From: Maribacter sedimenticola
Lineage (GTDB): Bacteria; Bacteroidota; Bacteroidia; Flavobacteriales; Flavobacteriaceae
Length of the DNA: 64,000 nt
Assembly (NCBI RefSeq): GCF_900188415.1
Contig: NZ_FZNV01000006.1
Location: 1 to 64,000 of the forward strand
Direction: 5' to 3'
Below are positions 25,925-41,735 of the stretch, one piece after another. The notes under the pieces are model-generated. The model ran no database searches. It had not been told where the DNA came from and worked only from the letters and a program-made list of their open reading frames with translations. Position 1 is the stretch's first letter; each line of letters starts with the position of its first letter. Both the position numbers and the translations under genes were made by a program.

Positions 25925-26836
25925 TTAATTATAATGCACTTCCCCTTCCTGTCCTTTATGTGCCATAAACGGAATATTTAAAATCGTCTGCATGATAATA
26001 TGTACGGTAGAGCTTATAATTCTTTTGGCCTTTTGTTTTGAGACCTTTCTATCCATACGGGCAATTCTGGCACCATTGACAATTTTAAAGTCCGAATTCT
26101 TTACAATCTTCACCAAATCTTTGTAATCCGTAAAATCCGATGTAATCTGAGCATTCAAAAAACCAACATAACGCGTACTTTCATCTTGTAAAAGATGTTC
26201 AACTCCCATGCTAATGGCCGCATCATTATCAAGGTTATGACCTTGACATACCTTTATAATCCCAGGATATTTATCCTGCAAACTATCTAGTATGGGCTGG
26301 GTTTGGTCTGTACTTCCTTGGTTAACAAAACAAATATGATATCCTAAATCATGAAATGGCACGTTTATGAACGTGCTACTCAATAGTTCATCCTCTACAT
26401 CCTGACAAGGTACAACGATACCTACTTGGTCATTCTTATACGTTTGTTCATTAGGAGCATTGTTAATAGAACCGGTATTAATATCCAATACTTGTGCAAT
26501 TTTTTTAGAAATATCATCAAGACCAAAGGGTTTCTTCATAAAATAATCCACTCCAGGTCCTAAATTGGCACTGGCAATCTGCTCATAGGATTCCTCTAGC
26601 ATTATTATAACCGGGGTCTTGGAATTTTGTACAAATCGTATATGTCTTAATACATTTAGACCGGATAAGCCAGGCATATTGATATCCACAAGAATTAAAT
26701 CTGGATTCTCCTTATCAAAAAGTGCTATACCCTCTTCACCTTCATGAGTAGTAATAACCTCATACCCTAAAAGAGATAAGTGCCTTTCTAAAAAAAGTAA
26801 AACTTGAGTATCGTTATCTATTGCTAAAATTTTCAT
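25925..26836 (-). CDS. Receiver domain fused to a degenerate GT2 glycosyltransferase
   Basis: 303 residues from the ATG at 26836 (MKILAIDND); an in-frame upstream start adds 13 unlikely residues. Residues 1-118 are a CheY-type receiver with D51 (LVDINMP) and a KKP lysine, but N8 replaces the second acidic residue and Leu replaces the Ser/Thr switch (VIIML). Residues about 137-303 resemble a DPM-type GT2, yet DAD of the sugar-nucleotide site is NAQ (GFLNAQITSD), PCYNEEE is PCQDVED, and the protein stops where the intact paralogue at 35482 continues for about 75 residues. It is probably inactive and regulatory. It is divergent from the GT-C gene. Confidence 0.8.
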   Translation of the reverse strand: MKILAIDNDTQVLLFLERHLSLLGYEVITTHEGEEGIALFDKENPDLILVDINMPGLSGLNVLRHIRFVQNSKTPVIIMLEESYEQIASANLGPGVDYFMKKPFGLDDISKKIAQVLDINTGSINNAPNEQTYKNDQVGIVVPCQDVEDELLSSTFINVPFHDLGYHICFVNQGSTDQTQPILDSLQDKYPGIIKVCQGHNLDNDAAISMGVEHLLQDESTRYVGFLNAQITSDFTDYKDLVKIVKNSDFKIVNGARIARMDRKVSKQKAKRIISSTVHIIMQTILNIPFMAHKGQEGEVHYN

Positions 26837-26872
26837 GGTAATTAGGTTTAATGATAAGATTTGGAACAAGTA

Positions 26873-26900
26873 CAAAATTAACCATTAGTATAGCCTACAA
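26873..26900 (-). promoter_or_regulatory. Promoter of the degenerate receiver-GT2 gene
   Basis: On the minus strand TTG (26898-26900), a 17-base spacer and TAATTTTG (26873-26880) match both boxes. The leader is about 30 bases. Confidence 0.6.
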
Positions 26901-26927
26901 GGAGTCATGAAAGGTAGTATGCGGATT

Positions 26928-26963
26928 ACTGTAGACGAATGACATTATTGCATCGGTGGTTGA
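26928..26963. promoter_or_regulatory. Bipartite motif in the divergent polysaccharide promoter
   Basis: ACTGTAGACGAATG (from 26928) and, in fixed register, TCGGTG (26953-26958). The same two blocks at the same spacing occur at 48435-48470 in front of the receiver gene next to the H-NOX operon. The site lies about 45-75 bases before the GT-C gene's expected start site. The about 21-base period is that of LytTR direct repeats. A LytTR site is inference. Confidence 0.5.
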
Positions 26964-26988
26964 TTATGAGGAAAGTGTACAATAAACC

Positions 26989-26996
26989 TATCTTTG
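26989..26996 (+). promoter_or_regulatory. -7 element of the GT-C gene
   Basis: TATCTTTG matches TAnnTTTG, 31 bases before the ATG at 27028. No TTG lies 17-23 bases upstream, which suits an activator-dependent promoter. Confidence 0.55.
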
Positions 26997-27027
26997 TTTT
27001 GTTATATTTTCTTACAATTAACAATTA

Positions 27028-30000
27028 ATGCAAAAGACAAATGTCTTACTAATACTGGCACTTTTTATTGGAGTCGCCTTCCATGGTTCTAGCATATTCT
27101 TTACGCTAGAAACTACATATGATGCATTGATTCATCTATTCTTTGCAGACCATTATGCCAATAGCTGGTTTGAACCATGGGATTACCGGTGGTATACCGG
27201 TTTTACCGTACAGGCGTACCCTCCGTTGGTACATCAAAGCATTGCGGCATTATCCTATATAGGTGGACTAAAGTTTGGAATGTTCACCATAGCTATAATT
27301 GGTATAATACTCTTTATAACAGGCGCTTACAGATATGCTCTTTTAATGACAGGAAGTCGTAAGATTGCAGGATACACTGCCCTATTGGCGGTGTTTTCAT
27401 CGACCTTTGTAGAGACATTACATATTTTTGGGCAATTGCCAAGTATTTTAGCACTTTCAATCTTACTACATGCCCTACCCGAAATTTATTTATGGATAAA
27501 AACCGGTAAACTTAGATATCTAGCTACGAGCTTGTCATTAATTTCGGTAACGGTTACATCCCATCATGTTACCCCTATTTTTGGCATGGTATTCTTTATT
27601 TTTCCATTAATAGGTATGGTAATAATGGATGCCAGTAAAGATCAAGTGGATCATATAAAATCCATAACCTTCAAAATATTTTTTAAACAATTTAAAAAAT
27701 TATTCTGGCGCATAGTAGGTTTTGGTTTTGGCTCATTATTATTGTTCATATTCTGTATACTGCCTTACTGGATCAATTCCAAAAAAAATCCTATTACCCA
27801 AGTACCAATACCGCATGGTTCACGTGATAATTTTTTAGAGGTGACCTCATCTGGCTTGGTCTTTTTTTTAATTCCTTGGGGGATATTACTATTTATACTA
27901 CCCTATATCTTCTATAGATACTTTAGCAAGCGGTATTTATTCTTTGGATTATCGTTTACCGTACTGACCATTTTGGGAACCGGTGGCACTACTCCGGTAC
28001 CTCTTTTGGTCCTAGGGGAAACCGCTTTCAATATTTTGACCCTAGATCGTTTTACGCTTTGGGCCACGATAATGGCATTACCAATATTTGGCGAGTTCAT
28101 GTATAGGTTTGTAGAAGGGGACCTAAAGGTAAACTTACAGCATCGGTTTGGCGCGGTATACCATAGAATATTAGGTGGTTTTTTTGCTGGTGGTATATTG
28201 GCCATGGTCATTTTTACCATGAGTCTAAATTACTTTAGGCCTTCACAACCCCAGAAAATAAACATGCTACCTATCGTCAATTTTTTAAGCCAGGATATGC
28301 ATGACCATTGGCGCTATTTACCCTTAGGGTTTGGTGATCAAATGGCATGGTTGTCCGCACAGACCAATGCCATGACGGTGGATGGCAACTATCATTCCGC
28401 AAGAAGACTTCCAGAACTAACTACAAGACCTATAGAAAGATTGGAAAATTCAAAATTTAGGGGCGTTCAAGGAATTGGATCCCTCCAGCAATTTTTGACC
28501 GTTCCTGAAAAGTATAATTTGAAATATATTTTCTCCAATGATAAGTTTTATGATCCACTACTCTATTTCTGTGGCTGGCAAAGACTGCAACAGTTAGAAA
28601 ACGGAATCATGGTCTGGGAGAAATTAAATGTACCCCCAATTCCTGCAATAATTGAAAAGGAAGATGTTTCTGTACTACTCAAGATTATGTGGAGCACTAT
28701 ACCGCTATTGACCGTAATCATTGCCTTTATTATCAATATACAGATGGCATGGTTTAGAATGTTAAAGTCCAGACCTTTGGTACAGGGCGTATTCTTAAAC
28801 TATGAATTACGTTATCAAAAATTTTCTAGAACATTGGTCAATATCAGCCATGGTTGGGCATTACTACTTTTATTGATTTTAGGTTTTGGAATGTATCATT
28901 TCTACTTATCTAACGCCACACAAATATCCCCAAAGAACGTAATTGTTTCCTATTATGATGCCCTTGATTTTAAGGAGTTTAATAGGGCTCACTCTTATTT
29001 AAACCCCGATAGTAATGTAGATATTGCCCAATATATGTTAGAAGTTTCCGTAACGGATGGTATTTTAAGTTCATATGCCAAATTAGATTCCATAGGGGTT
29101 GAACTTTTTAATGAAACCCAAACTGCCGCAAGAGCCAAAGTCTTAACACATTGGGTTACACCGTTGGAGAAAATAGAAAAACTTTACGAGCATGACCTGG
29201 TCAAAAAAAATGGCAAATGGTATATTGATCCAGATACATTTGACAATGACCTGCCCCCAGATCAGCTATTATCTTCTAACGGTACATCATTCTATAATCA
29301 TGGTAGAAGACGAATTACCACACAACAGACCAATCATGAAGATGTATTAAAACAGCCAACACTTGAAATTTTAACCGCCAAATTGGTAAAGAACAAAGGT
29401 AGTTACAGTATAATAGGTGAGTTACAAAATGTAGATAACGTACCTTCTGATGTAGTTCTTAAGGTAAGCCTTTACAACGATCAAAATACCGAGCTCGCCA
29501 GTTATAATGGCAAATATCAGATGAAACATAAATTAATGCCCAAGGAAACGACCACTTTTAGAATAGATTTTGAAGGAATTGCGTGGTCATCTACCAAGGA
29601 CACCTTGCCTCCAACTTTTGATCCAGATGAATTTACACCAATAGACTTTCTGGAACAGCCCACAAAATTTAACATTCAGTGCGCAGGTAATGTGGCAAAT
29701 ACTGATCTTTATAAAGAAATTACCATTCAGGAAGTTGAACTTAACCCTGGCGTTATATCAGGTGCACTTTTTAATTCCGGTATTCAAGAGGTAACCATTC
29801 CCCAATTATTGGTCTCATATTATTCAAATGCAAAAGAATTACTATGGGTAGAGCATCATTTTTTGACCGAGGGTGTACGTATACAGCGAAAGCAATATTT
29901 TGAGTTTAAGCCCAAAGACCTTACAGGGCTCGTTGTAATAAATTCTAGTTTGGAAAACTGTTTTATAAACGGTATGCCTAACAAAACAGTAATGGAAAAT

Positions 30001-30114
30001 GCCATTCCAAATAGGGATAAAGGGCACGCCATTGAGCAACTGCAACCTGTAAGGGGAGAAGGGTATTCGTATATGAAAATTGAAGTGAACGGTTATATTG
30101 GAAATCCTAAGTAA
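27028..30114 (+). CDS. Large GT-C-like membrane protein with periplasmic domains
   Basis: A 1028-residue inner membrane protein. About ten hydrophobic segments (residues 1-400) surround a first external loop with TYDALIHLFFADHYANSWF and PWDYRWYTGF, acidic and His residues placed as in GT-C glycosyltransferases that use polyprenyl-phosphate sugars. Two further membrane segments at about 555-575 and 605-625 precede an NTF2-like domain (about 640-745, VIVSYYDALDFKEFNRAHSYL) and two beta-rich domains to the end. I infer a periplasmic glycosyl transfer or polymerisation step. It heads the plus-strand operon with the lipoprotein and hydrolase genes and overlaps the former. Confidence 0.65.
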   Translation: MQKTNVLLILALFIGVAFHGSSIFFTLETTYDALIHLFFADHYANSWFEPWDYRWYTGFTVQAYPPLVHQSIAALSYIGGLKFGMFTIAIIGIILFITGAYRYALLMTGSRKIAGYTALLAVFSSTFVETLHIFGQLPSILALSILLHALPEIYLWIKTGKLRYLATSLSLISVTVTSHHVTPIFGMVFFIFPLIGMVIMDASKDQVDHIKSITFKIFFKQFKKLFWRIVGFGFGSLLLFIFCILPYWINSKKNPITQVPIPHGSRDNFLEVTSSGLVFFLIPWGILLFILPYIFYRYFSKRYLFFGLSFTVLTILGTGGTTPVPLLVLGETAFNILTLDRFTLWATIMALPIFGEFMYRFVEGDLKVNLQHRFGAVYHRILGGFFAGGILAMVIFTMSLNYFRPSQPQKINMLPIVNFLSQDMHDHWRYLPLGFGDQMAWLSAQTNAMTVDGNYHSARRLPELTTRPIERLENSKFRGVQGIGSLQQFLTVPEKYNLKYIFSNDKFYDPLLYFCGWQRLQQLENGIMVWEKLNVPPIPAIIEKEDVSVLLKIMWSTIPLLTVIIAFIINIQMAWFRMLKSRPLVQGVFLNYELRYQKFSRTLVNISHGWALLLLLILGFGMYHFYLSNATQISPKNVIVSYYDALDFKEFNRAHSYLNPDSNVDIAQYMLEVSVTDGILSSYAKLDSIGVELFNETQTAARAKVLTHWVTPLEKIEKLYEHDLVKKNGKWYIDPDTFDNDLPPDQLLSSNGTSFYNHGRRRITTQQTNHEDVLKQPTLEILTAKLVKNKGSYSIIGELQNVDNVPSDVVLKVSLYNDQNTELASYNGKYQMKHKLMPKETTTFRIDFEGIAWSSTKDTLPPTFDPDEFTPIDFLEQPTKFNIQCAGNVANTDLYKEITIQEVELNPGVISGALFNSGIQEVTIPQLLVSYYSNAKELLWVEHHFLTEGVRIQRKQYFEFKPKDLTGLVVINSSLENCFINGMPNKTVMENAIPNRDKGHAIEQLQPVRGEGYSYMKIEVNGYIGNPK

Positions 30115-31339
30115 TTTGAATACAAGTTTTTACATAGTGGCAATTTTATTCCTTATCGTTGGATGCAAACACAGTACACATGATACTCCCCTTGCCCTAA
30201 CTAAAGTTTCCCTAATGCCGTACAATAAAGTAATAGCGGCGGGTGAACCTTTTCAATTACGTTTTAAAGGAAATCTAGACCATCAGTTAAAATTAGTGGT
30301 AAGAAATAGTATGGGTATTACTGTACTAACCCCCAAAATTGATAATGATCAATTCCTATTTGACTTTCCAAAAAACCTCATTAGAAAATCCGGAATATGC
30401 CATTGGAGTTTGGTTCATAATGCCAAAGTTCTAAATGAAGGAGCTTTTGACATTACACCCAATACAGCGTTAAAAACCCATATAGAATCTTATTTGGGTC
30501 CTAGAGGCATCACTGCCGTTGCTACAGACTTTTCCACGCATGTAATATCACCCACTGATGCCTATGACAACCCACTATCCCAAGGAACCGACGTTATAAG
30601 CACCTTTCAATTTCAAGATAAAATTAATACGACTACTTTAGAAATCAATAATCTTTTGGCATGGACCTCTATTTATGCCCCTACCCAAGCCGGTAGAATT
30701 TTAGTAACCTCTAGTTGTAACGCTAGTAGTTCAAAAGAACTTACAACAATTGTATATCCAGGAAATGGTACCAATTTTAAAATTGATTTTCAACGAAACC
30801 ACAGTTTTGCGGACGGCAACCAAATTATAACATTTTTCACCAGTGATATAAAGGATGCAAATAACAATGTAATCAGTGATGGTACTTTGGTCCATTTTTT
30901 GGCGACAAACTCCAAAGGGCTGCAATTAAGCGCAAACGGAACAACTTTAAACGGGGTGGCGAATGCACGTTTTCTTCATCCTTACGAAGAAGATACTTGG
31001 AGCGTAAAAGCATATATTACCGGTGCAGCAGTAAGTAGTCCGTTAAGTGTTTCTTTTACAGCAGCTATTAAGGATTATGACATAACACCGTCCAAAACCG
31101 GTCGTACAATAACTTTAGAAAACATTTTAAGCTTTATGGACCAGATTGTCCCAGATGGCTTACCAGTTACCTTACAACTTTATGATGAACAGGGTGTTTA
31201 TATCACTAGGATCAAGGAAACTTCACGACTGGGAAAAATTGGGTTTACTCTGCCCCGGGAATATTATAAATCCGGCAACTACAAAATTAAAGCCAATGTG
31301 GCCGGTATTGTTAAAGAACAAATGATTACACTGCAATGA
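30098..31339 (+). CDS. Lipoprotein with Ig-like beta-sandwich domains
   Basis: A 413-residue protein if read from TTG at 30098; a TTG at 30116 (two bases after the upstream stop) is equally possible, and no ATG fits, so the start is non-canonical either way. A hydrophobic stretch ends in the lipobox LIVGC. The rest is strand-rich: a stretch resembling invasin-type Ig domains (about 215-325, HSFADGNQIITFFTSDIKDANNN) and a C-terminal domain of repeated short strands. It may help handle or anchor polysaccharide on the periplasmic side. It overlaps both neighbours, so it is translated with them. No defined family. Confidence 0.65.
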   Translation: MEILSNLNTSFYIVAILFLIVGCKHSTHDTPLALTKVSLMPYNKVIAAGEPFQLRFKGNLDHQLKLVVRNSMGITVLTPKIDNDQFLFDFPKNLIRKSGICHWSLVHNAKVLNEGAFDITPNTALKTHIESYLGPRGITAVATDFSTHVISPTDAYDNPLSQGTDVISTFQFQDKINTTTLEINNLLAWTSIYAPTQAGRILVTSSCNASSSKELTTIVYPGNGTNFKIDFQRNHSFADGNQIITFFTSDIKDANNNVISDGTLVHFLATNSKGLQLSANGTTLNGVANARFLHPYEEDTWSVKAYITGAAVSSPLSVSFTAAIKDYDITPSKTGRTITLENILSFMDQIVPDGLPVTLQLYDEQGVYITRIKETSRLGKIGFTLPREYYKSGNYKIKANVAGIVKEQMITLQ

Positions 31340-32862
31340 AAATGAACCGCAATCTATATAGGGCTTTTTTATTGATAACGTTCTTAACGTTGAATGGCCT
31401 TATTTTATACGGTATCAGTTCTATATGGTCCTATTTAAATACGGGTGCAGACCGTAAGACAATGTTACATCTTCCCGCCCAACTGACTTCCAATTATTTA
31501 CCCAAGGTTAATTGGTCGCCGCTAAACAATGATGGCAGGCCTATGGAATTACAGACCTTACAAGAATTAGAGCGAGATTATATAAAGGCTTGGTACGTAA
31601 AGAACAATGCGTTAGAAACAAACAATCACTATGGTGTAAACGATTATTACACAGATAGCGCAAGAGTAAAACTGTATAAAGTGCTTGACCATAATAAAGC
31701 GAATAATATTTCTGTAAAAACTACTACCATAGAACATAACCCCATACTTAATTTTTATAGTGCAGATGGTAAGTTGGCCGTTCTGACCGATAAGAACGTA
31801 CAAATACAAGAACAGGTTTTTGTTGACAACATAATGTTATTAAAAAGGAGTTATGAAAGTTCATTCCAAGCAATGTTACTATTGGAAGATGGCTTCTGGC
31901 GTGTACGTCATCTAGTAGAAATTGAGAACACACCTGTGTCAGTATCCAAAGATCAATCAATTCCACAAACTGTTCTTTCAGAAATTAGAGATATTAAAGG
32001 GCTTAATTATTATCCACGTGAAAACCCATGGAATATGTTTGGGAAACATTTTCAAGATACTGTCATTGACAGTGATTTTAGCAAGATCAAATCCTTAGGA
32101 CTAAATTCCATTAGAATATTCATACCCTATGAAGGATTTGGTAAAACGACTCTTGATACTGATAAAATGTCACAATTACAACGTACCATGGACCTAGCCA
32201 GCAAAAATAAACTAAAGGTTACGGTAACCCTGTTCGATTTTTATGGGGATTATTCATTGGCCGATTGGACCTTAACACATAGACATGCAGAAAAAATTAT
32301 AACGGCATTAAAGGACCATAAGGCCTTGCAGGCTTGGGATATTAAAAATGAACCTGATTTGGATTTTAAATCACGTGGTAAACAAAATGTACTTTCTTGG
32401 TTAGGACAAATGGTTAAGGAAATTCGAAAATGGGATAACAATACCCCCATTACCATAGGTTGGTCCAATCCAGAAGCCGCATTGAACCTTACCACTGAAT
32501 TAGATTTCATCTCGTTTCATTATTATAGGAAACCCAAAGATTTTTTAGCATCCTACAATGCATTACAAGATGCCATTAACAATAAACCAATCGTATTACA
32601 GGAATATGGCTATTCATCATACGACGGTATTTGGAACGCTTATATGGGTTCTGAGGAAGATCAGGCCAACTACTACAAGGAAATGCAAACCATGATCACC
32701 AATGCTAAATTACCATTCTTGTTATGGACACTTTATGATTTTACTGAGGTACCGGATAATGTCGTAGGCAGATTGCCTTGGCGCAAAAGTCAACAACAAC
32801 ATTTTGGGATATTGGACAATCAAGGAAACCTAAAGCCCGCCTACCAAGAAATCATTAAATAA
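31336..32862 (+). CDS. Membrane-anchored GH5-like glycoside hydrolase
   Basis: A 508-residue protein with one N-terminal membrane anchor (about 8-30), an NTF2-like domain (about 70-200, LERDYIKAWYVKNNA) and a TIM-barrel hydrolase (about 215-508). The barrel has the clan GH-A signs: WDIKNEPDLD with the acid/base Glu after strand 4, ISFHYYR, and VLQEYGYS with the nucleophile Glu after strand 7. Hydrolases are common in exopolysaccharide operons (BcsZ, PslG), where they trim or release nascent chains, and that role fits here. Its ATG overlaps the lipoprotein stop by four bases. Substrate unknown. Confidence 0.8.
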   Translation: MKMNRNLYRAFLLITFLTLNGLILYGISSIWSYLNTGADRKTMLHLPAQLTSNYLPKVNWSPLNNDGRPMELQTLQELERDYIKAWYVKNNALETNNHYGVNDYYTDSARVKLYKVLDHNKANNISVKTTTIEHNPILNFYSADGKLAVLTDKNVQIQEQVFVDNIMLLKRSYESSFQAMLLLEDGFWRVRHLVEIENTPVSVSKDQSIPQTVLSEIRDIKGLNYYPRENPWNMFGKHFQDTVIDSDFSKIKSLGLNSIRIFIPYEGFGKTTLDTDKMSQLQRTMDLASKNKLKVTVTLFDFYGDYSLADWTLTHRHAEKIITALKDHKALQAWDIKNEPDLDFKSRGKQNVLSWLGQMVKEIRKWDNNTPITIGWSNPEAALNLTTELDFISFHYYRKPKDFLASYNALQDAINNKPIVLQEYGYSSYDGIWNAYMGSEEDQANYYKEMQTMITNAKLPFLLWTLYDFTEVPDNVVGRLPWRKSQQQHFGILDNQGNLKPAYQEIIK

Positions 32863-32890
32863 AAAAGGTCGGCTAAATTGCCGACCCTTT
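32863..32890. terminator. Bidirectional terminator in the polysaccharide locus
   Basis: GGTCGGC (32867-32873) pairs with GCCGACC (32880-32886) around TAAATT. It separates the hydrolase gene from the convergent GT4 gene. Confidence 0.8.
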
Positions 32891-32908
32891 TCATAACCAA
32901 ACCAATCC

Positions 32909-34138
32909 TCAATGAACCAGTTTCTTCTCCATAGCTGGAATATCAATTGTGTACCCGGTATCCTTGGATTTTTGAATTGCCTTAAAATAATCTATATACA
33001 TTTGGGTAATAGTTGACATAGGCAATGAACAGGCAGCCTTATAGTTTTGTCTTCCCAATTTTATTCTATAGGCATCATCCGTAATGATTTTTTCAATTGC
33101 CAATGCCAATGATGAAGTATTAAGGGCATCAAAAAACTCTCCTTGATATCCTTCTTCCTCTACCAATGTACTTAAGTCGCCAAGGTCAGGCAATGCCACA
33201 GCGTTACCATAACTACCCGCTTGGTGCAATACACCGGAGCTACCTGTAGTAGAGGTATAAGGAAAAACCGTGACCGCACTTTCCGCATAAATTTTTGGAA
33301 CGTCCTCTTCGGCCACATAACCGGTAAACCTAATTTTTGGAACATGACTATATTTTTCCTTTATCCCGTCTAAATATCCAGGAGTGTTTGGGCTATCCGT
33401 ACCTGCAATGACGATTTCAATATCAACATTGCTCCTAGATCTTATTTCTTCTACCGCCTCTATTAATATCTCCACTTTTTTATATGTTCCAAATTTTCCA
33501 AAAGCCATTACCTGTTTAGGACCGGCAGGAAGTTGATAACTAGGTTCTGGCGGAGTTTCAAAAGCACCATGGGGAATCAATGCAACATTTTTAACCTTGT
33601 ATTTCTCTTCTAAAATTGACACATATTTACTAATGGTTACCGCCAATATATCCGAAGCCAAAACAAAACGGGTCAATGAAGTACCAATAAAATTATATAT
33701 ACCCTGTAATACCTTGTTTTTGGTAAAACCGGCATTTTCCAAATCTACTTTTTCAAGAATATTATGCAATAGCGATATGGTAGGAATACCTTTCATTTTA
33801 CAAATAAAAGGCAGCATTAGTCCCATAGCGGCCGGTACCTTTTTATCCCCAAATTTTAAAAACTGAAGATTAAATAAAACAGCATCTGGCTTAGTTTGGG
33901 AAATAGCCTTACTAATATTGATTAAGTTTTTGTAGCTATTAAAATTCCAACATTCCTTTACCGTAATCTTACAACCTTGTTCTTCAAAATTTAAATCCTT
34001 AGGAGCATTTGTATGGTCGGTGATCAAGATAAGTTCCGTAACTTCTTCTTGAAGCCTGAAATGTTTTACTAAATAATACCCATACTCGGTCAGTGTTACT
34101 TTACTAGGAGGGTATGCGGTTACAATGGCTAATTTCAT
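32909..34138 (-). CDS. GT4-family glycosyltransferase
   Basis: A 409-residue cytosolic GT-B enzyme. The N-terminal half has the AIVTAYPPSK start; the C-terminal half carries the nucleotide-sugar site: AFGKFGTYKKVEILIEAVEE (about 220-239), IAGTDSPNTPGY, RFTGYVAEEDVPKIYAESAVTVFPYTS and SGVLHQAGSYGNAVALPD, with the second Glu of the usual EX7E replaced or displaced. It should add a sugar from a nucleotide donor to a lipid-linked chain. Last gene of the minus-strand set receiver-GT2, flippase, GT4. Confidence 0.88.
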   Translation of the reverse strand: MKLAIVTAYPPSKVTLTEYGYYLVKHFRLQEEVTELILITDHTNAPKDLNFEEQGCKITVKECWNFNSYKNLINISKAISQTKPDAVLFNLQFLKFGDKKVPAAMGLMLPFICKMKGIPTISLLHNILEKVDLENAGFTKNKVLQGIYNFIGTSLTRFVLASDILAVTISKYVSILEEKYKVKNVALIPHGAFETPPEPSYQLPAGPKQVMAFGKFGTYKKVEILIEAVEEIRSRSNVDIEIVIAGTDSPNTPGYLDGIKEKYSHVPKIRFTGYVAEEDVPKIYAESAVTVFPYTSTTGSSGVLHQAGSYGNAVALPDLGDLSTLVEEEGYQGEFFDALNTSSLALAIEKIITDDAYRIKLGRQNYKAACSLPMSTITQMYIDYFKAIQKSKDTGYTIDIPAMEKKLVH

Positions 34139-34165
34139 TTAATTAAATTTTAATATGTATAGTGG

Positions 34166-35446
34166 TTATAGCGTACGTGGACGTACATCCCTTAAATCAT
34201 TGTTATTTGAAGATGAAGAATTTTTTATAAGAAAAAATATGACCTGCGCTATTAACAGAATTACCATGGCAATTATCTGAACCTGAACTACAGTTTCTAG
34301 AGTATCATGATAAAGAGTTACCAAAACTACTTGTGAAAGCCCTAAAATTCCGGAAAGAATAACGGGGGCATATTGGTTTAAGGACAAAAAATAATAGGCA
34401 AAGATGTTACTAATGGCAAACAATGAAGTTGCCAAGGCATATTGCCAAAGTAAATGGGCTATACTAATATAGGCGTCACCGAACATTAAGGAAATAATCA
34501 GTTCCGGAAACCAATAACATGCAAGAACTATTGTGCTTGACAAAGCGCTAATGAAAAAGACATATTTAAATAATATGGGAGCAGTGGGTTCCCCATCTTT
34601 TTGTTTTTGGATTACTGTTGGCATTAATAACATGACAAACATCCATGCAACAAAATATACAACACGGCCAATCAAAGCCAAAGAAGAGTAAAGGCCGGCA
34701 TCCGTATCATTAAAATAATGTTTTACCAGAAGGATATCGCTATTGTTTATGATAATCTGGGTAAGCTCATAACCTGCGGTAAGGCCTATAAATATCCATA
34801 CCTCTTTCAAGTGCGCACTGCTTAAACGTTCTTTGGCAAATACCTGGATATTTTTAATATCAGAAGGAAATAGACCAAATATAAAAGATAGTGCTATACC
34901 CATAGCAATTAACAAACTTGACTCTAGGGGTAAAAGCAGCAATAGTAAAAATGTTAATATAAGTCTGCTCCACATTTCGGTTTGATAGGTTGCCGCAAGT
35001 TTACCAAAATGATGTTTGCCCTGAAACCTTCCTCTATTCACACTCATAAAAAAATATAAGGGAACGGACAGCGCAAAAATTTTGAACATCCCATGGTTTT
35101 CAGTTTGAAAAAGCACTTGCAATTGTTCGGAAAATAGATATATCACGGCTCCAGTGCATACCCCAAACATTAAAGCATATCTATACATTGTACTTTTAAA
35201 TACAGTCCATGTATTCCCAGAAAAAAGTACGGCAAATTTTGTCGTTGTCAATTGAAATGTCATCCCTACAAAGGATAAAACCAATAATAAGGTAACCAAC
35301 AATGCCGCATCTGCAAATGCTTCCGGTCCTAGAATACGGCCAAGTAATAAATTATATAGATAGTTACCGCCGTTTACAAGGATGGCACTACCCATAAATA
35401 AATGCTTGGAAGTAACTTTGTTCAATGCTACTTTTACGGTGGTCAT
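34166..35446 (-). CDS. Wzx/MATE-like polysaccharide flippase
   Basis: A 426-residue inner membrane protein with about 12 hydrophobic segments, of the MOP superfamily (polysaccharide biosynthesis protein). It begins with a helix holding SAILVNGGNYLYNLLLGRILGPEAFA, the conserved start of flippases, where gatekeeping residues lie. It should move a lipid-linked oligosaccharide or polysaccharide unit across the inner membrane. It sits 35 bases after the receiver-GT2 gene and 27 before the GT4 gene, all minus strand. No dedicated Wzy polymerase was recognised nearby. Confidence 0.85.
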   Translation of the reverse strand: MTTVKVALNKVTSKHLFMGSAILVNGGNYLYNLLLGRILGPEAFADAALLVTLLLVLSFVGMTFQLTTTKFAVLFSGNTWTVFKSTMYRYALMFGVCTGAVIYLFSEQLQVLFQTENHGMFKIFALSVPLYFFMSVNRGRFQGKHHFGKLAATYQTEMWSRLILTFLLLLLLPLESSLLIAMGIALSFIFGLFPSDIKNIQVFAKERLSSAHLKEVWIFIGLTAGYELTQIIINNSDILLVKHYFNDTDAGLYSSLALIGRVVYFVAWMFVMLLMPTVIQKQKDGEPTAPILFKYVFFISALSSTIVLACYWFPELIISLMFGDAYISIAHLLWQYALATSLFAISNIFAYYFLSLNQYAPVILSGILGLSQVVLVTLYHDTLETVVQVQIIAMVILLIAQVIFFLIKNSSSSNNNDLRDVRPRTL

Positions 35447-35481
35447 GAGTTCGTTCTTTTTAAATGCCCTATCAAGAAATA

Positions 35482-36618
35482 CTATCTATATACAAAGGCT
35501 ATTTTAGCAAGTTGACCAACTATTTTTACGGAATCTTTCATGGATAGTTTAGAGCCGTCTGCATGGATCCAACGTTTTAAAGGCTGCTCACATATAAGTT
35601 TTTTAGCTTCGGTCTTGCCATAATGCTTTCGCATTCTTATGAACATTTCTACATCGAATAACCATTTGGTAATAAATGGCTTATTAAAAAGTAAGGGCAC
35701 AACTGAGCGTTCCATCACTTTGGCCCCACATTGTGTATCATTAAAAGGCATTCTTAATATAGTCCTTATGATGAGGTTAATGGTTTTGCTTATGATTTTT
35801 CGTGCGGATTCCTTAGTAATATCGGCTCCCATTCTACTCATTCTTGACCCGCTGACAATCTTAAAATCAGATTGGTCCAACGTGCTTACCAAATCATCAA
35901 AATCCCTAAAATCCGTAGAGAGGTCCGCATCCAGAAAACCAATATAATCCAGCTGGGTATCTTTGGCCAAATGCAGCATGCCCTGTCTAACGGCCTCTGC
36001 CTTACCTCCATTTTTTTCACAGTTATATACACTTATATTATTCTCACTTCCATTTTGGAGCTCCTGAAGTACTGACAACGTATTATCCGTGCTACCATCG
36101 TTGACAAAACATAAATGATATCCTAAATTTTTATGCGCAAAATCCTTGAACTGCATACTAAGGAGTCGCTCTTCTTCATTATAACAAGGTATGACCACGC
36201 CCACACAATTTTTTTGCAAAATTCTTGAGGCATTTGAGGTTAGTGTTGTCACATTTTCAGGAGAACCAATAAGTCGTTTTATACGAGCGGCCATTTCATC
36301 TAGACTTACCGGTTTTTTCATATAATCATCAATGCCCAAAGTAAAACCGTCCATAATAATTTGTTCCTCAGTGTTACCGGACATTACTAATACAGGAATA
36401 TTTTTACTACTACCTATCTTTATATGTTTAACTACATCCAGACCAGACATATCTGGCATATTGATATCAACAAGTACCAAATCGGGCTTAAAAGAATTAA
36501 ACAACTCTATGCCTTTCTGGCCAGAATTAGCCGTCATTACTTGATAACCCAACTCTGTCAAACGTTTTTCAACAGATAAAAGAATAAGCTGTTGATCATC
36601 TATAGTTAAAATTTTCAT
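35482..36618 (-). CDS. Receiver domain fused to a DPM-type GT2 glycosyltransferase
   Basis: A 378-residue fusion. Residues 1-120 are a complete CheY-type receiver: D7/D8, phospho-acceptor D51 (LVDINMP), Ser switch in VLVMSG and the KKP lysine. Residues about 137-378 are a GT2 of the dolichyl-phosphate-mannose synthase type: VVIPCYNEEERLL, VNDGSTDNT, GFLDADLSTD with the DXD metal site, SRMSRMG, and FNDTQCGAKVM. It should make a polyprenyl-phosphate sugar, the donor type used by GT-C enzymes such as the 27028 product, under direct phosphorylation control. It has no effector DNA-binding domain. First gene of the minus-strand operon. Confidence 0.88.
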   Translation of the reverse strand: MKILTIDDQQLILLSVEKRLTELGYQVMTANSGQKGIELFNSFKPDLVLVDINMPDMSGLDVVKHIKIGSSKNIPVLVMSGNTEEQIIMDGFTLGIDDYMKKPVSLDEMAARIKRLIGSPENVTTLTSNASRILQKNCVGVVIPCYNEEERLLSMQFKDFAHKNLGYHLCFVNDGSTDNTLSVLQELQNGSENNISVYNCEKNGGKAEAVRQGMLHLAKDTQLDYIGFLDADLSTDFRDFDDLVSTLDQSDFKIVSGSRMSRMGADITKESARKIISKTINLIIRTILRMPFNDTQCGAKVMERSVVPLLFNKPFITKWLFDVEMFIRMRKHYGKTEAKKLICEQPLKRWIHADGSKLSMKDSVKIVGQLAKIAFVYR

Positions 36619-36709
36619 TTTTAAAATTTAGGTAAGATTTAACTTACATATAACGTTTTATTCTTATTATATTGTAAGATAATAGTGTTAATTATTTGAT
36701 GTAATTCAA

Positions 36710-36737
36710 ATATCAATACGATGCATAGCATTGATAT
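36710..36737. promoter_or_regulatory. 28-bp imperfect palindrome, candidate operator
   Basis: ATATCAATACGATG (36710-36723) and CATAGCATTGATAT (36724-36737) match as reverse complements at 12 of 14 positions. It overlaps GATATTTG on the minus strand (36707-36714), one mismatch from the -7 consensus, 92 bases before the receiver-GT2 ATG. A repressor site is inferred. Confidence 0.45.
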
Positions 36738-37093
36738 AGTTAAAATTCCTTGACGTCATTCATGATTGTTTGACATAAAAATTTGCGGGTAAAAAGTAGA
36801 TTGAATTTCAACATTAATTCTTATGATTTCATGTATTTAAAAAGGGAGCAGCTAACCACACTACTCCCTCTTCCACTGAACCTAACCAAAAATTTATAGT
36901 ATATATTTCACGAACAATACATTTAAAAAAATCTATTAGATTTTTTAAGTTCCCGTCAATTAAACCCGTACTCTTACAAAGTTCATTATTCATAATTAAT
37001 TACCGTTATGCCCTATTTTTGAACTATTTCCGGTACAAATATCTTTTTTTCAGTGGTTTAAAATAGCACCATATAGACCAATAGTCTTTAAGT

Positions 37094-37106
37094 GTAGTTG
37101 AACTAC
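37094..37106. promoter_or_regulatory. Short palindrome upstream of the TPR porin gene
   Basis: GTAGTTGAACTAC is a perfect palindrome with 6-bp arms, 112 bases before the ATG at 37218. Candidate regulator site only. Confidence 0.3.
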
Positions 37107-37217
37107 AACTATCATACTTCCAAATAATTACAGACTCATACTACCTTTATAAAATATATAAAACTAATAAAACGCAAAAATTTCCGTTAGGTATTTGTGG
37201 TAATAATCTTACATTAA

Positions 37218-39281
37218 ATGTTGCAAAAAATTATATTCCTTTTTATGCTTACTACCATGGTTTTAAGCGCTCAATCCAAAATGGATCCAGGTTTTACTAT
37301 GTTAGAAAAAGGAAATTTTCAAGAAGCAGAAGAGTTCTTTGAAGCGTATCTTAAAACAGACCCCGAAAATAAAACGGCACGACTTTGCTATGGAAGAGCG
37401 GTAGGATTGAGTGGTGAACCAGAAAAAGCAACCACTCTGTTCGCTAATTTATTATTGGACTATCCTGAAGATTTTGAGATTCAAATCAACTATAACGAAT
37501 CTTTCCTATGGGCCAAAGAATATAAGCGAGCAAAGCCATTATATATAGACTTGGTCAATAAAAACCCCGATCAGTTTGGCGCCGTTTTAGGACTTGCCAA
37601 TACCTTAAGCAATCTTAAAGAATATAAAAATGCTTTGCAATGGGTAGAAAAAGCATTATTGATTCAACCTAACAACTTAAGTGCACAAACTTCCAGAAAA
37701 TATATAAAATTAGGGTATGCCAATCAGTTCGTAAATGACCAATTGTATCAAAAAGCAGAAGAGTTACTAAAAGAAATTTTTATTGATTTTCCACAAGATA
37801 AGGATGCCCTATTGAATTTGGCCAACCTTTACTTGATAACTAAACAGGTAGATAAAGCTAAGGCCACCTATAAACAACTAGCCGTAACGCCAAAAGATTC
37901 TATAAATTCCCTTAACGGAATAGCCTTGGCAGCGCATATAGATGAGAATGACAAAGAAGCTCTTAAAATTTCATCGTCCGCTATAGCCAAAGTCCTTCAT
38001 ATTAACGATGAGGAATTAAAAGAACGTACGTATGATCGTTATGTACAAGCACTTATATGGAACCGAAAATTTATTAGTGCGAAAAAACAAATTGACAGTT
38101 TGGAAAATACCATGCCAAACCGTAATTGGATCTACGCATTAAAGGCCACGCTGGGTCTTTATACCGGCAATTCCAAATACAGTGTAGAGAACTATAACAA
38201 AATATTGACCAACGACAGTACTTCCTTTGATGGAAATTTAGGAATGGCTAATGCATTATTTGCGGAAGAGCGTATACTACCGGCCTATCATATGGCAAAC
38301 CAAACCCTTACATATTATAAAAACCAAAAGGATGCAAAAGATTTTATTGAAAAACTAAATTTAATGCACACCCCCACCATAGAAGAACATGCGGCCTATA
38401 CATTTGATAATGGTAAGAATGTGGCCTATTTTACCAACACTACCGTTGAGGTACCTTTTTCTACCAAGTTTAGGACTACCCTGTCCTATTTTTATAGAAC
38501 AACTGAAAATACGGTTACTAATAATCAAGCTAAATCTCATGTAGTGTTGGCAGGACTACACTATAAATTATTGCCCAAAACCTTATTAAAGACAATCATA
38601 GGGTTCAACAATTCTAGGTTTATGGAAGATTCCTACACCCAACCGGTAATAGATATAAAACTAATGTTACGACCATTAAAACTTCAAAACTTAAATTTGG
38701 GATATCAACGTGAAGTACAGAACTTTAATGCAGACCTTATAGAACGGGAAATTGTTCAGCATCATTATGGGTTAAACTATAATTTGGGCACGAACATTAA
38801 TTTAGGATGGTATACCCAATTAATGCATACCCAACAAAGTGATACGAACACGCGAAATTTACTCTTCACCTCACTATATTATACTGTACTGCAAAAGCCG
38901 GCATTAAAAATGGGAATTAATTATCAATATATCACTTTTAAGAATCAACTACCAACCATCTATTTTAGTCCGGAAAAATATAGGGCTATAGAACTCTTTG
39001 GCGATATTAGAGGAACGTTCAGTGATAAGACAACCTATATGGCAAGTGCGGCAACAGGAATACAAAGGGTAGAATCTGACCCAAATACTACCATTTTTAG
39101 AGCGGAAACCTCCATTCAACATCAATTCTCAAAAAGATTCAGTCTAAATATATATGGTAAGTACAGTAATATAGCGTCTGCCACTGCTGCTGGTTTTGAA
39201 TTTACGGAGATTGGGTTGAAGGCAAAATGGCTCTTTTTAGGCAAACCACTATTTTTTAAATCCCTTAAACTGCAAAATTGA
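37218..39281 (+). CDS. TPR-containing outer membrane beta-barrel, YaiO/PgaA-like
   Basis: A 687-residue exported protein. A signal peptide (MLQKIIFLFMLTTMVLSAQ) precedes about ten TPR-like helical pairs (residues 20-390, for example FQEAEEFFEAYLKTDPENK, PEKATTLFANLLLDYPEDF), then a C-terminal barrel of about 290 residues with alternating strands (TKFRTTLSYFYRT, LNLGYQREVQNFN, NLGWYTQLMHTQ). This is the layout of the exopolysaccharide exit porin PgaA and the YaiO family, so it probably passes the polysaccharide across the outer membrane. It stands between the glycosyltransferase operon and the kinase gene. Confidence 0.82.
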   Translation: MLQKIIFLFMLTTMVLSAQSKMDPGFTMLEKGNFQEAEEFFEAYLKTDPENKTARLCYGRAVGLSGEPEKATTLFANLLLDYPEDFEIQINYNESFLWAKEYKRAKPLYIDLVNKNPDQFGAVLGLANTLSNLKEYKNALQWVEKALLIQPNNLSAQTSRKYIKLGYANQFVNDQLYQKAEELLKEIFIDFPQDKDALLNLANLYLITKQVDKAKATYKQLAVTPKDSINSLNGIALAAHIDENDKEALKISSSAIAKVLHINDEELKERTYDRYVQALIWNRKFISAKKQIDSLENTMPNRNWIYALKATLGLYTGNSKYSVENYNKILTNDSTSFDGNLGMANALFAEERILPAYHMANQTLTYYKNQKDAKDFIEKLNLMHTPTIEEHAAYTFDNGKNVAYFTNTTVEVPFSTKFRTTLSYFYRTTENTVTNNQAKSHVVLAGLHYKLLPKTLLKTIIGFNNSRFMEDSYTQPVIDIKLMLRPLKLQNLNLGYQREVQNFNADLIEREIVQHHYGLNYNLGTNINLGWYTQLMHTQQSDTNTRNLLFTSLYYTVLQKPALKMGINYQYITFKNQLPTIYFSPEKYRAIELFGDIRGTFSDKTTYMASAATGIQRVESDPNTTIFRAETSIQHQFSKRFSLNIYGKYSNIASATAAGFEFTEIGLKAKWLFLGKPLFFKSLKLQN

Positions 39282-39531: not shown

Positions 39532-41319
39532 ATGTGGACAAGAGTTTTAAAAATGTTGGTTAGCCTATATCTTCCTTTATTTGCGCTAACATTATTCTTA
39601 TATTTTTTTCAGAAAGATAGGCAAATCAACCAACTGGCCGTTTATCAAAATAAGGCAACTACTTTTAAGAAAAATACTTTCATGGAAGATAGTTATACTT
39701 TCTTACGTGATACCCATTATTGGTCTACCTTAAACTATCCCAACGATTTTGACCCCATGAACAAGCATAAAGAACTTATGCTACCTTTTATAAACCTTAT
39801 CAAGAAAATTACGGATTATGATCAATTTAGATTCATTGATCTCAATGGACAGGAAATTTTTAGGGCGGTACGTTATAGTCAGGATTCATTGATAATAGGA
39901 CAATTACAAAACAAAAAGGAACGTGATTATGTGCAATCCGGACTCAACTTAAAAAAAGACCAACTTTATATATCACAAATTAACCTGAACAGGGAAAACG
40001 GGGTTATAGAAGAACCTAAAAAGGCCGTAGTGAGAACTGTAGCTCCAATATTTACTTCAAACAATCAGAAAATAGGTCTTGTAGTCATCAACTTTAAGGT
40101 AAAGAGAATTCTTGACCAACTTAAATCCAAAATTGTCAATACTAATATTTTTTTATTGGACAAGGAAAATAATGTTATTAGTGCTAGCAGTTTACCGGAA
40201 GATTTACCATATGAATCTAAAAACTTCACCCAAGATTATAAAGATATTTTAGGAACGACCTTTTTTCCGCATGAAACAGATACCACATACATAGCTAATG
40301 ATCATATTTGGACTCAATTAAATATTGCCTTAAACCATACCAAAATACCTTATGGGGCAAGCCAAAACGATACCATTGAAGTTATTTCCCCAACTAATTT
40401 AGTGTTGGCCCAAGAAACACCGCCAAGTGTTATAAAAAGTTATCTACAGCCAGTTTATGAAAGCCTACTGACCTTTAATTTTATCTCCGTATTGGTCCTT
40501 TTGGGTTTTTCATATGTATATCAAAAAAACAGGGTGCAAAAAGAACAATTTTACCTTGAGCTAAAAGAAAAGAACAAAATGTTGTTAAAGAGTAAAGATC
40601 AATTACAGGAAAAAAATGTAATGGTCACGGAAATGAACAACAGCCTGGAAATACGTAACAAGCAATTGAGCGATTTCAATTATTTAATATCCCATAACCT
40701 AAGGGCACCGGTAACCAGCATGTCCCTAATCGTTGAAATGATCAACAAGGAAAAAAACCCAGAAACACTAGACCTACTATTGCCCAAGCTTGATCAAGTT
40801 GCTAAAAGCATAACCAATCTTACGCAGGATATCAATGAATATGTATCTATTTTAGATAATAAAGAGATTAAGCTAACCGAAATTAATGTACCTGAGTTAA
40901 TACATAAGGTTAAACATGAATTTACCGAAACACTTTTGGACAATGGGGAATTTGAGGTCAAACAAAATTTTGAGGCTTGGGAACAATTAACCTATTCAAA
41001 ATTTTATTTACAAAGCATTCTCCACAACTTTATATCAAATGGCATTAAATATCGGAGGAAAAATGTATCCTCTTATATCATGTTTAGATCTGCAATGGAA
41101 AACAATAAAAAAGTACTTTATGTTGAAGATAATGGCATAGGGTTAAATTTGGATCAACATGGTGAAAATGTTTTTAAACTGTATAAAAGATTTCATAGAA
41201 ATGTGTCCGGCAAGGGAATGGGGCTATTTTTGGTAAAATCTCAATTAGAAGCCCTTAACGCCACTATAGAAATTGAAAGTGAGGTAGGAATAGGAACAAT
41301 ATTTAAATTAATATTTTAA
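39532..41319 (+). CDS. Membrane sensor histidine kinase
   Basis: A 595-residue kinase with an N-terminal membrane helix (about 7-25), an external sensing region of about 290 residues that reads like a Cache-type domain (FRFIDLNGQEIFRAVR, APIFTSNNQKIGLVVINFKV, IFLLDKENNVISAS), a second helix (about 315-335), a coiled coil, then the catalytic core: H-box NYLISHNLRAPV, N-box LHNFISNGIKYRR, G1 VEDNGIGLNLD and G2 GKGMGLFLVKSQLE. No HAMP is evident. It is followed after two bases by a single-domain receiver, its likely partner. Its position beside the porin suggests control of the polysaccharide locus. Confidence 0.9.
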   Translation: MWTRVLKMLVSLYLPLFALTLFLYFFQKDRQINQLAVYQNKATTFKKNTFMEDSYTFLRDTHYWSTLNYPNDFDPMNKHKELMLPFINLIKKITDYDQFRFIDLNGQEIFRAVRYSQDSLIIGQLQNKKERDYVQSGLNLKKDQLYISQINLNRENGVIEEPKKAVVRTVAPIFTSNNQKIGLVVINFKVKRILDQLKSKIVNTNIFLLDKENNVISASSLPEDLPYESKNFTQDYKDILGTTFFPHETDTTYIANDHIWTQLNIALNHTKIPYGASQNDTIEVISPTNLVLAQETPPSVIKSYLQPVYESLLTFNFISVLVLLGFSYVYQKNRVQKEQFYLELKEKNKMLLKSKDQLQEKNVMVTEMNNSLEIRNKQLSDFNYLISHNLRAPVTSMSLIVEMINKEKNPETLDLLLPKLDQVAKSITNLTQDINEYVSILDNKEIKLTEINVPELIHKVKHEFTETLLDNGEFEVKQNFEAWEQLTYSKFYLQSILHNFISNGIKYRRKNVSSYIMFRSAMENNKKVLYVEDNGIGLNLDQHGENVFKLYKRFHRNVSGKGMGLFLVKSQLEALNATIEIESEVGIGTIFKLIF

Positions 41320-41321
41320 GC

Positions 41322-41735
41322 ATGCATACAAAGTCCAATATTTTACTTGTTGATGATGATGAACTCTATCTGTTTTTAATGGAAAGAACAATTCATCAAA
41401 TATCAAATACCTTAAAAGTAGGCAGCTTTACCGATGGAGAGCGTGCTATTGAATACATTACACAATGTACGAATGAAAAAACTCCTTTACCGGAAGTTAT
41501 TTTTTTGGATATTAATATGCCTTTCTTGGATGGATGGGGCTTTTTGGCGGAGTTTAAAAAATTAAAACCACAAATTTCCAATAAGGTCAATATTTACATG
41601 GTAAGCTCTTCTATGCGTGAATTTGATAAAAAAAGGGCCGCCAATTTGGAGGAACTTACCGGTTATGTTATAAAGCCGGTTGATAAAGGTCAATTAATAG
41701 AAATTTTCAAGACAATATATCAAGAAAATTGGTAG
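41322..41735 (+). CDS. Single-domain response regulator
   Basis: A 137-residue CheY-like receiver with an acidic triad start ILLVDDDE, phospho-acceptor in FLDINMP (about D62), a Ser switch in YMVSSS and the lysine of YVIKPV. No output domain, so it should act by protein contact or pass phosphate on. It starts two bases after the kinase stop and is surely cotranscribed. Possible partners are the Hpt protein and the receiver-GT2 fusions nearby. Confidence 0.92.
   Translation: MHTKSNILLVDDDELYLFLMERTIHQISNTLKVGSFTDGERAIEYITQCTNEKTPLPEVIFLDINMPFLDGWGFLAEFKKLKPQISNKVNIYMVSSSMREFDKKRAANLEELTGYVIKPVDKGQLIEIFKTIYQENW

Follow-up and report, generated by a model that had tools for sequence, protein, structure and literature searches.

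An enzyme as the output domain is well established among response regulators, and where signals are known to control bacterial glycan synthesis they act mostly via transcription or cyclic di-GMP. In the response regulator PorX of the Bacteroidota, which belongs to type IX secretion, the output domain is PglZ. Among the glycosyltransferases, ArnC and GtrB carry C-terminal membrane helices, and PgfS and AglJ use polyprenyl phosphate. In this paper we describe two proteins, fusion A and fusion B, which join a response-regulator receiver (REC) to a family 2 glycosyltransferase (GT2) domain and are encoded in Maribacter sedimenticola (assembly GCF_900188415.1, contig NZ_FZNV01000006.1) in the window, that is, the whole stretch of 64,000 nucleotides from positions 1 to 64,000 that was analysed. 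Fusions of RECs with glycosyltransferases have been published for the Methanobacteriaceae, in which proteins of the MTH_548 type carry one or two RECs and a BcsA-like PF13641 domain (PMC5847659), and the principle of a receiver-glycosyltransferase fusion is therefore not new; the sequence-only reading of this DNA, which knew of no described system of this kind, was overstated in that respect. A phrase and keyword search of the literature, with subscription papers mostly outside its reach, found no description of the flavobacterial REC-GT2 family.

Fusion A can be described as a response regulator with a glycosyltransferase in the place of the output domain, and with a probability of about 0.5 its phosphorylation would directly gate the supply of a lipid-linked donor. 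Like the MTH_548 type it joins a receiver to a glycosyltransferase; unlike that type, which is archaeal and was compared by its published description only, its glycosyltransferase has its best match in PF00535 and is linked to a GT-C-like gene. With PorX it shares the phylum, the response-regulator class and an output other than DNA binding, whereas its output is a GT2 domain, the protein having zero PglZ matches in Pfam, and the NCBIfam model NF052313 (PorX) matches the REC part of the fusion only. Its DxD motif and its best sequence and fold matches are shared with ArnC, GtrB and dolichyl-phosphate mannose synthase (DPMS), from which it differs in having a receiver and in scoring far below the curated cut-offs. 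The genes at the centre of this comparison are as follows:

35482..36618, minus strand: REC-GT2 fusion A, 378 aa (Pfam, alignment of 109 fusions, AlphaFold2 (AF2) model)
25925..26836, minus strand: REC-pseudoGT2 fusion B, 303 aa (Pfam, alignment with fusion A)
27028..30114, plus strand: polytopic membrane protein, here called GTC, 1028 aa, weakly GT-C-like (co-occurrence, model, Pfam matches of homologues)

Receiver and glycosyltransferase domains of fusion A

Pfam places Response_reg at residues 3-114 of fusion A (E 1.2e-25, 90.3 bits, cut-off 30.2) and Glycos_transf_2 at 141-289 (E 2.4e-22, 80.1 bits, cut-off 23.3); in fusion B the same domains lie at 3-113 (E 5.1e-21, 75.4 bits) and 163-277 (E 1.8e-10, 41.4 bits). 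Since both domains stand above their cut-offs in both proteins, the claim of the sequence-only reading that each joins a receiver with D51 to a GT2 domain is borne out, and a search of the 4.27-Mb genome gave no other match spanning both. Fusion A consists of a receiver (1-117), a low-confidence linker (about 119-137) and an intact GT2 domain (138-378). In the AF2 model (mean pLDDT 80, pTM 0.61) the receiver lies within about 1.1-1.7 A of solved receivers, the low-confidence linker joins it to the GT2 domain, and a single helix (360-377) closes the chain of 378 residues.

The receiver pocket of fusion A is canonical (D7, D8, D51, S80, K102). D51, S80 and K102 are invariant in 109/109 distinct intact fusions, D7 is kept in 108/109 and D8 in 106/109; this set leaves out four rows with degenerate GT2 domains (fusion B and loci L083-L085; L and G numbers denote our loci and genomes), which were set aside beforehand and which keep D51 and K102 in 4/4 and S80 in 3/4. 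D98, E108 and R112 are likewise invariant (109/109), and because such D-R and E positions are presumably those of the alpha4-beta5-alpha5 dimer face of OmpR/PhoB-type receivers, phosphorylation-driven dimerisation of fusion A may reasonably be inferred. Mean conservation across the fusions is lower in the REC (0.73) than in the GT2 domain (0.82), and the linker is variable (0.37).

The GT2 domain of fusion A carries a DxD motif, and by sequence and fold its nearest group is the ArnC/GtrB/DPMS type. Its matches among PDB sequences are headed by ArnC (E 2.1e-10), GtrB/sll0501 (1.7e-9) and DPMS (1.4e-6), with chondroitin synthase and TagF trailing at E 1e-4 or weaker, and ArnC, GtrB and DPMS are also the best fold matches of the modelled domain. 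The NCBIfam matches over about 165 residues are ArnC, PpgS, PgfS and AglJ, none near its cut-off; the score for PF00535 (80.1 bits) compares with 32.4 bits for PF13641 (cut-off 27). The motifs DTQCG and GSKL may be reminiscent of ALG5-type dolichyl-phosphate glucosyltransferases. On such resemblances, polyprenyl phosphate is the likely acceptor.

Distribution of the fusion and its linkage to a polysaccharide locus

With fusion A as the query, a match at E<=1e-30 is present in 29 of 60 genomes (its own included), of which 25 belong to the genus, represented by 36 genomes; two full-length copies, some 10 kb from each other, are found in 15 of the other genus members, and of the four matches outside the genus three are confined to the GT2 part. 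Within the family 112/397 genomes match at E<=1e-60 and within the phylum 16/395 at E<=1e-35, the only receiver-covering match outside the family among these 395 being that in G598 (67% identity), which has the same gene block around it. A pattern scan of relatives was confined to the best 80 of 583, giving 77 loci from which wider spread is not readable; the carriers among these best 80 include Zobellia, Arenibacter, Cellulophaga, Aquimarina, Winogradskyella, Kordia, Maribacter, Lacinutrix, Psychroserpens, Tenacibaculum and Robiginitalea, with named isolates in Zobellia, Cellulophaga, Maribacter, Winogradskyella and Kordia. The REC-GT2 fusion is a real conserved family within Flavobacteriaceae, and its presence in many genomes rules out an assembly artefact.

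Genes for the polytopic GTC, a lipoprotein-like protein, a glycoside-hydrolase (GH)-like protein, a GT4-type glycosyltransferase and a flippase lie between fusions B and A, so the fusions do bracket a polysaccharide locus, as had been proposed. GTC matches at E<=1e-60 in 109/397 family genomes and occurs together with the GT2 in 108; the GT2 is found without GTC in four (G134, G170, G174, G420), and GTC without the GT2 in one, G258, merely as a 236-residue fragment. In 94 of the 108 genomes the nearest GT2 is divergent from GTC at less than 1 kb (68 fused, 26 bare), in 11 the two lie within 12 kb, and in three they are on different contigs. Among 117 loci inspected (40 plus 77, some of them the same records) the fusion is present in 103, GTC in 102, both in 90 and all five block genes in 92, and 12 loci (L086-L097) have GTC with a bare GT2 and without the fusion. 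No GTC match was found in 13 fusion loci (L081, L083-L085, L099, L135, L137-L140, L142, L168, L177), some of which are short contigs or early-ending stretches. In locus L099 (genome G016) a flippase-GT4 pair precedes a B-like fusion and the 20-kb stretch has no GTC, lipoprotein or GH gene, a pattern that would arise if recombination had removed the block that lay between two fusion copies.

The receiver is not carried by every GT2 of this slot. With fused defined as a match starting before query residue 75, which takes in G445 (71-378), 81 of the 108 genomes with GT2 and GTC have the fused form only, 26 the bare form only and one has both. Because a fused GT2 fills the slot in 82 genomes and only a bare one in 26, the receiver looks like an added, optional control module on a shared pathway; the fused form in 82/108 also excludes the case, named in the sequence-only reading as one that would tell against it, of homologues in which the two domains are always separate. 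A split gene, with the receiver next door to the bare GT2, was rejected: in L086-L097 no open reading frame of at least 80 aa matched the fusion receivers or the regulator at 41322 at E<=1e-6 (BLAST, not exhaustive), and the search of the bare loci gave one LytTR match, in L097. In a tree of 84 GT2 domains, made by a quick method after removal of near-duplicates, a single change accounts for all 65 fused domains and 15 of 17 bare GT2s form another group (Shimodaira-Hasegawa-like approximate likelihood ratio, SH-aLRT, 88), with an unsure root and long branches in several rows. A single origin of the fusion is thus probable, in that the tree fits it and does not prove it.

The protein encoded at 27028 had been called GT-C-like. 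The window GTC has zero Pfam matches; of 45 homologues, 23 match PTPS_related, a family of the GT-C clan (best E 3.3e-5), and four each match MecA_N (NTF2-like, best 0.01) and DUF624 (best 0.0055). The C-terminal part is beta-rich, and the gene is divergent from the GT2 slot. The co-occurrence and adjacency of the two genes are near-complete; the likeness of GTC to GT-C proteins is weak, and a place in that superfamily is plausible for it.

The remaining genes of the locus and its right-hand flank, where fusion A is followed by a TPR protein that resembles PgaA and then by a histidine kinase/receiver pair, are:

30098..31339, plus strand: putative lipoprotein with an Ig-like domain (Invasin_D3/Big_1-like, below cut-off; Pfam, order kept among relatives)
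31336..32862, plus strand: glycoside-hydrolase-like TIM-barrel protein (Glyco_hydro_2_C 24.1 bits, cut-off 21; order kept among relatives)
32909..34138, minus strand: GT4-type glycosyltransferase, Glycosyl transferases group 1 (Pfam Glyco_trans_1_4, E 1.9e-17)
34166..35446, minus strand: polysaccharide flippase-like protein (Pfam Polysacc_synt_3, E 1.5e-11)
37218..39281, plus strand: candidate porin for export through the outer membrane, a TPR protein resembling PgaA (TIGR03939 at E 8e-13, under its cut-off)
39532..41735, plus strand: histidine kinase and single-domain response regulator (Pfam, recount of homologues)

No curated name for GTC, the lipoprotein, the GH-like protein or the flippase came from NCBIfam, which gave zero matches at E<=0.01. 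Divergence among relatives is faster in the lipoprotein (26-54% identity) and the GH-like protein (35-72%) than in GTC (46-87%), and the TPR protein has a homologue in 19 of the 117 loci. Between fusion A and the TPR gene the window has about 600 bases (36619-37217), where other Maribacter have an extra flippase-GT4 pair (for instance L064:2388-5130 and L104:7017-9743); the flippase of the L064 pair is split.

Fusion B and other possible partners of fusion A

The receiver of fusion B keeps D51 and K102 and has the changes S80L and D8N. In its GT2 domain the aspartate of VNDGS is replaced by Q and LDAD has become LNAQ, so that D174, D230 and D232 are lost; the protein aligns with fusion A to residue ~293 and then runs on for some dozen residues of unrelated sequence, the GT2 domain lacks its final ~85 residues, and no remnant of the lost C-terminal part was found downstream of the stop. 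With the DxD lost and the domain truncated, the GT2 of fusion B is not a working domain of the polyprenyl-phosphate glycosyltransferase type. The proposal that both proteins carry a GT2 of the dolichyl-phosphate mannose type accordingly held for fusion A and failed for fusion B, and the proposal that both supply donor sugar is not supported, as fusion B has lost its catalytic residues. Its position is that of an intact copy of 384 to 388 residues in two-copy Maribacter loci, and it is most similar to this copy of G002 (46%) and G024 (45%), whose GTC is 87% identical to the window GTC; orthology rests on the place beside GTC and on best identity, the placement in the GT2 tree being unreliable (long branch).

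It is possible, though the less probable answer to this separate question, that the gene at 25925 is a dying pseudogene without function. An identity of 46% to the orthologous copy, against 87% for GTC in the nearest species, would agree with this, as would the loss of the catalytic residues, of S80 and of the C-terminus, and a proportion of nonsynonymous differences (pN) of 0.34, compared with 0.07-0.13 between intact copies. A comparable second copy in L212 is stop-interrupted with recognisable sequence beyond the stops, and copies of the fusion B kind therefore do decay. On the other side, the proportion of synonymous differences (pS, saturated) is 0.74 against the pN of 0.34, and stop-free REC plus degenerate GT2 proteins with D51 occur also in L083-L085 and L213. 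Moreover, no stop interrupts the 302 aligned codons of fusion B; a neutral simulation, which assumes 75% of the divergence on the fusion B branch, AT-rich mutation and no indels, gave a mean of 10.6 stops and 0/2000 stop-free runs. Because the open frame departs from this neutral expectation, a pseudoenzyme is the more probable state of fusion B and a dead gene the less probable one, and the most likely role of the protein would be that of a non-catalytic paralogue modulating or titrating the active fusion A.

Copies with a REC and a degenerate GT2 were found in five other loci (open in L083-L085 and L213, stop-broken in L212), and all keep D51. The L213 copy adjoins an intact fusion, has lost D174 and D230 and is truncated. 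The L212 copy has the DxD and has lost the other motifs and the C-terminus; as its frame is stop-interrupted with homology beyond, it was dropped as a candidate for a kept pseudoenzyme. Directly downstream of 24 of the 107 fusions with at least 700 bp of downstream sequence lies a half-length GT2 of 141-167 aa (for instance L152:11216-11707, L160:11228-11662 and L170:11226-11660; those of L077 and L165 do not differ in sequence), in hosts such as Winogradskyella, Kordia, Lacinutrix and Psychroserpens. The equivalent of D174 is N in 24/24 of these, and both DxD aspartates are present in 0/24. Single receivers of 123-134 aa occur in six loci with GTC (L076:14882, L077:4778, L159:276, L164:10001, L165:10001, L167:397; five distinct sequences), share 51-56% identity with the fusion A receiver and have D51, S80 and K102 in all cases. 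The recurrence of degenerate GT2s suggests non-catalytic partners, and REC-pseudoGT2s, half-length GT2s and single receivers might serve as phosphate sinks or as non-catalytic subunits of the active fusion. The full scheme, in which two-component signalling gates a lipid-linked donor for a GT-C protein by phosphorylating the enzyme and is tuned by recurrent dead partners, is doubtful as a whole.

Proposed phosphorylation of the enzyme and competing explanations

In the reading that we prefer, a histidine kinase would phosphorylate D51 of fusion A, and the phosphorylated receiver would shift the oligomeric or docking state of the protein and so alter the activity of the attached GT2. The GT2 would move a sugar from a nucleotide onto polyprenyl phosphate, and the lipid-linked sugar would be consumed by the polytopic protein at 27028; the glycan would be assembled and moved by the GT4 and the flippase, trimmed by the GH-like protein and, in loci that have the TPR porin, exported by it. 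We infer the phosphorylation, the polyprenyl-phosphate acceptor, the role of a GT-C protein and the direct gating. What the sequence itself shows is the fusion, a full set of the residues needed for catalysis and phosphorylation, a linkage to GTC that is close to obligate, a bare GT2 in its place in part of the family and a tree that a single fusion would fit. One candidate for the kinase is the adjoining gene at 39532, which bears a sensor domain, the regulator next to it being single-domain. The neighbouring kinase-regulator pair was rejected as a conserved partner: full-length pairs homologous to 39532-41735 occur in only 10 of the 117 loci, all Maribacter, with a weaker pair in L154 (an Allomuricauda metagenome-assembled genome) and a partial kinase match in L116.

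Several points weigh against this reading. No kinase is conserved beside the locus (of 117 loci, 12 have a histidine kinase homologue, and 10 of these 12 are from Maribacter), 26 of 108 genomes have no receiver on the GT2, and the fused group's own branch in the quick tree has an SH-aLRT of only 69. The Fisher p of 2e-91 for the co-occurrence of GT2 and GTC ignores shared ancestry. The GTC model is poor (mean pLDDT 64.6) and Foldseek ranks a chain of TRAPPII, an unrelated protein, first (E 5.6e-4); chains of oligosaccharyltransferases come next at E 1.2e-3 and weaker, with TM of about 0.2 on the query and 0.3 on the target, and are intermixed with matches to the soluble part, and the GTC family profile gave no match among PDB sequences. 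In fusion A, no further segment looks like a membrane anchor, as judged without a transmembrane predictor. The curated models NF007986, NF058614 and NF047588 score 51.8, 39.2 and 38 bits against cut-offs of 529, 370 and 500, and the GT2 of fusion A is therefore to be called only polyprenyl-phosphate glycosyltransferase-like; PgaC scores nearly as well over its N-terminal half and is the best NCBIfam match of the two bare GT2s scanned. Finally, invariance of the GT2 motifs is the weaker evidence because it is partly built in, 77 loci having been found with the patterns LCFVNDGS and DTQCGAK and the degenerate rows having been dropped.

That the receiver sets the location or the partner of the enzyme, for example its recruitment to a GTC-flippase complex at the membrane, and not catalysis itself, is unlikely: the linker is variable and modelled with low confidence and GT2 and GTC are nearly inseparable, yet bare GT2s fill the same slot without a receiver. 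We regard it as rather improbable that the GT2 acts straight on a growing chain or on a lipid-linked oligosaccharide, attaching sugars to it, with the receiver gating chain growth. The PgaC/IcaA matches, which are similarly strong over the first 115 residues of the domain and stronger in two bare GT2s, would suit such an enzyme, as would the GT4 and flippase of the locus, whereas the NCBIfam matches of fusion A over about 165 residues (ArnC, PpgS, PgfS, AglJ) and the best fold matches (ArnC, GtrB, DPMS) point to transfer onto a lipid phosphate. A receiver that is a passenger without a signalling role is very improbable; its lack in 26/108 genomes could be so explained, but the phosphorylation pocket is invariant over 109 distinct fusions, and D51, S80 and K102 are kept also in the six single receivers (five distinct).

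If direct gating of fusion A is true, a kinase could adjust how much polysaccharide is made through the receiver of a donor-sugar synthase, with no need for new transcription. The family amounts to a natural experiment, in that the enzyme of the same slot has a receiver in 82 of 108 genomes and is found only without one in 26, and the recurrent degenerate GT2 partners would make a testable case of pseudoenzyme evolution within a signalling system.

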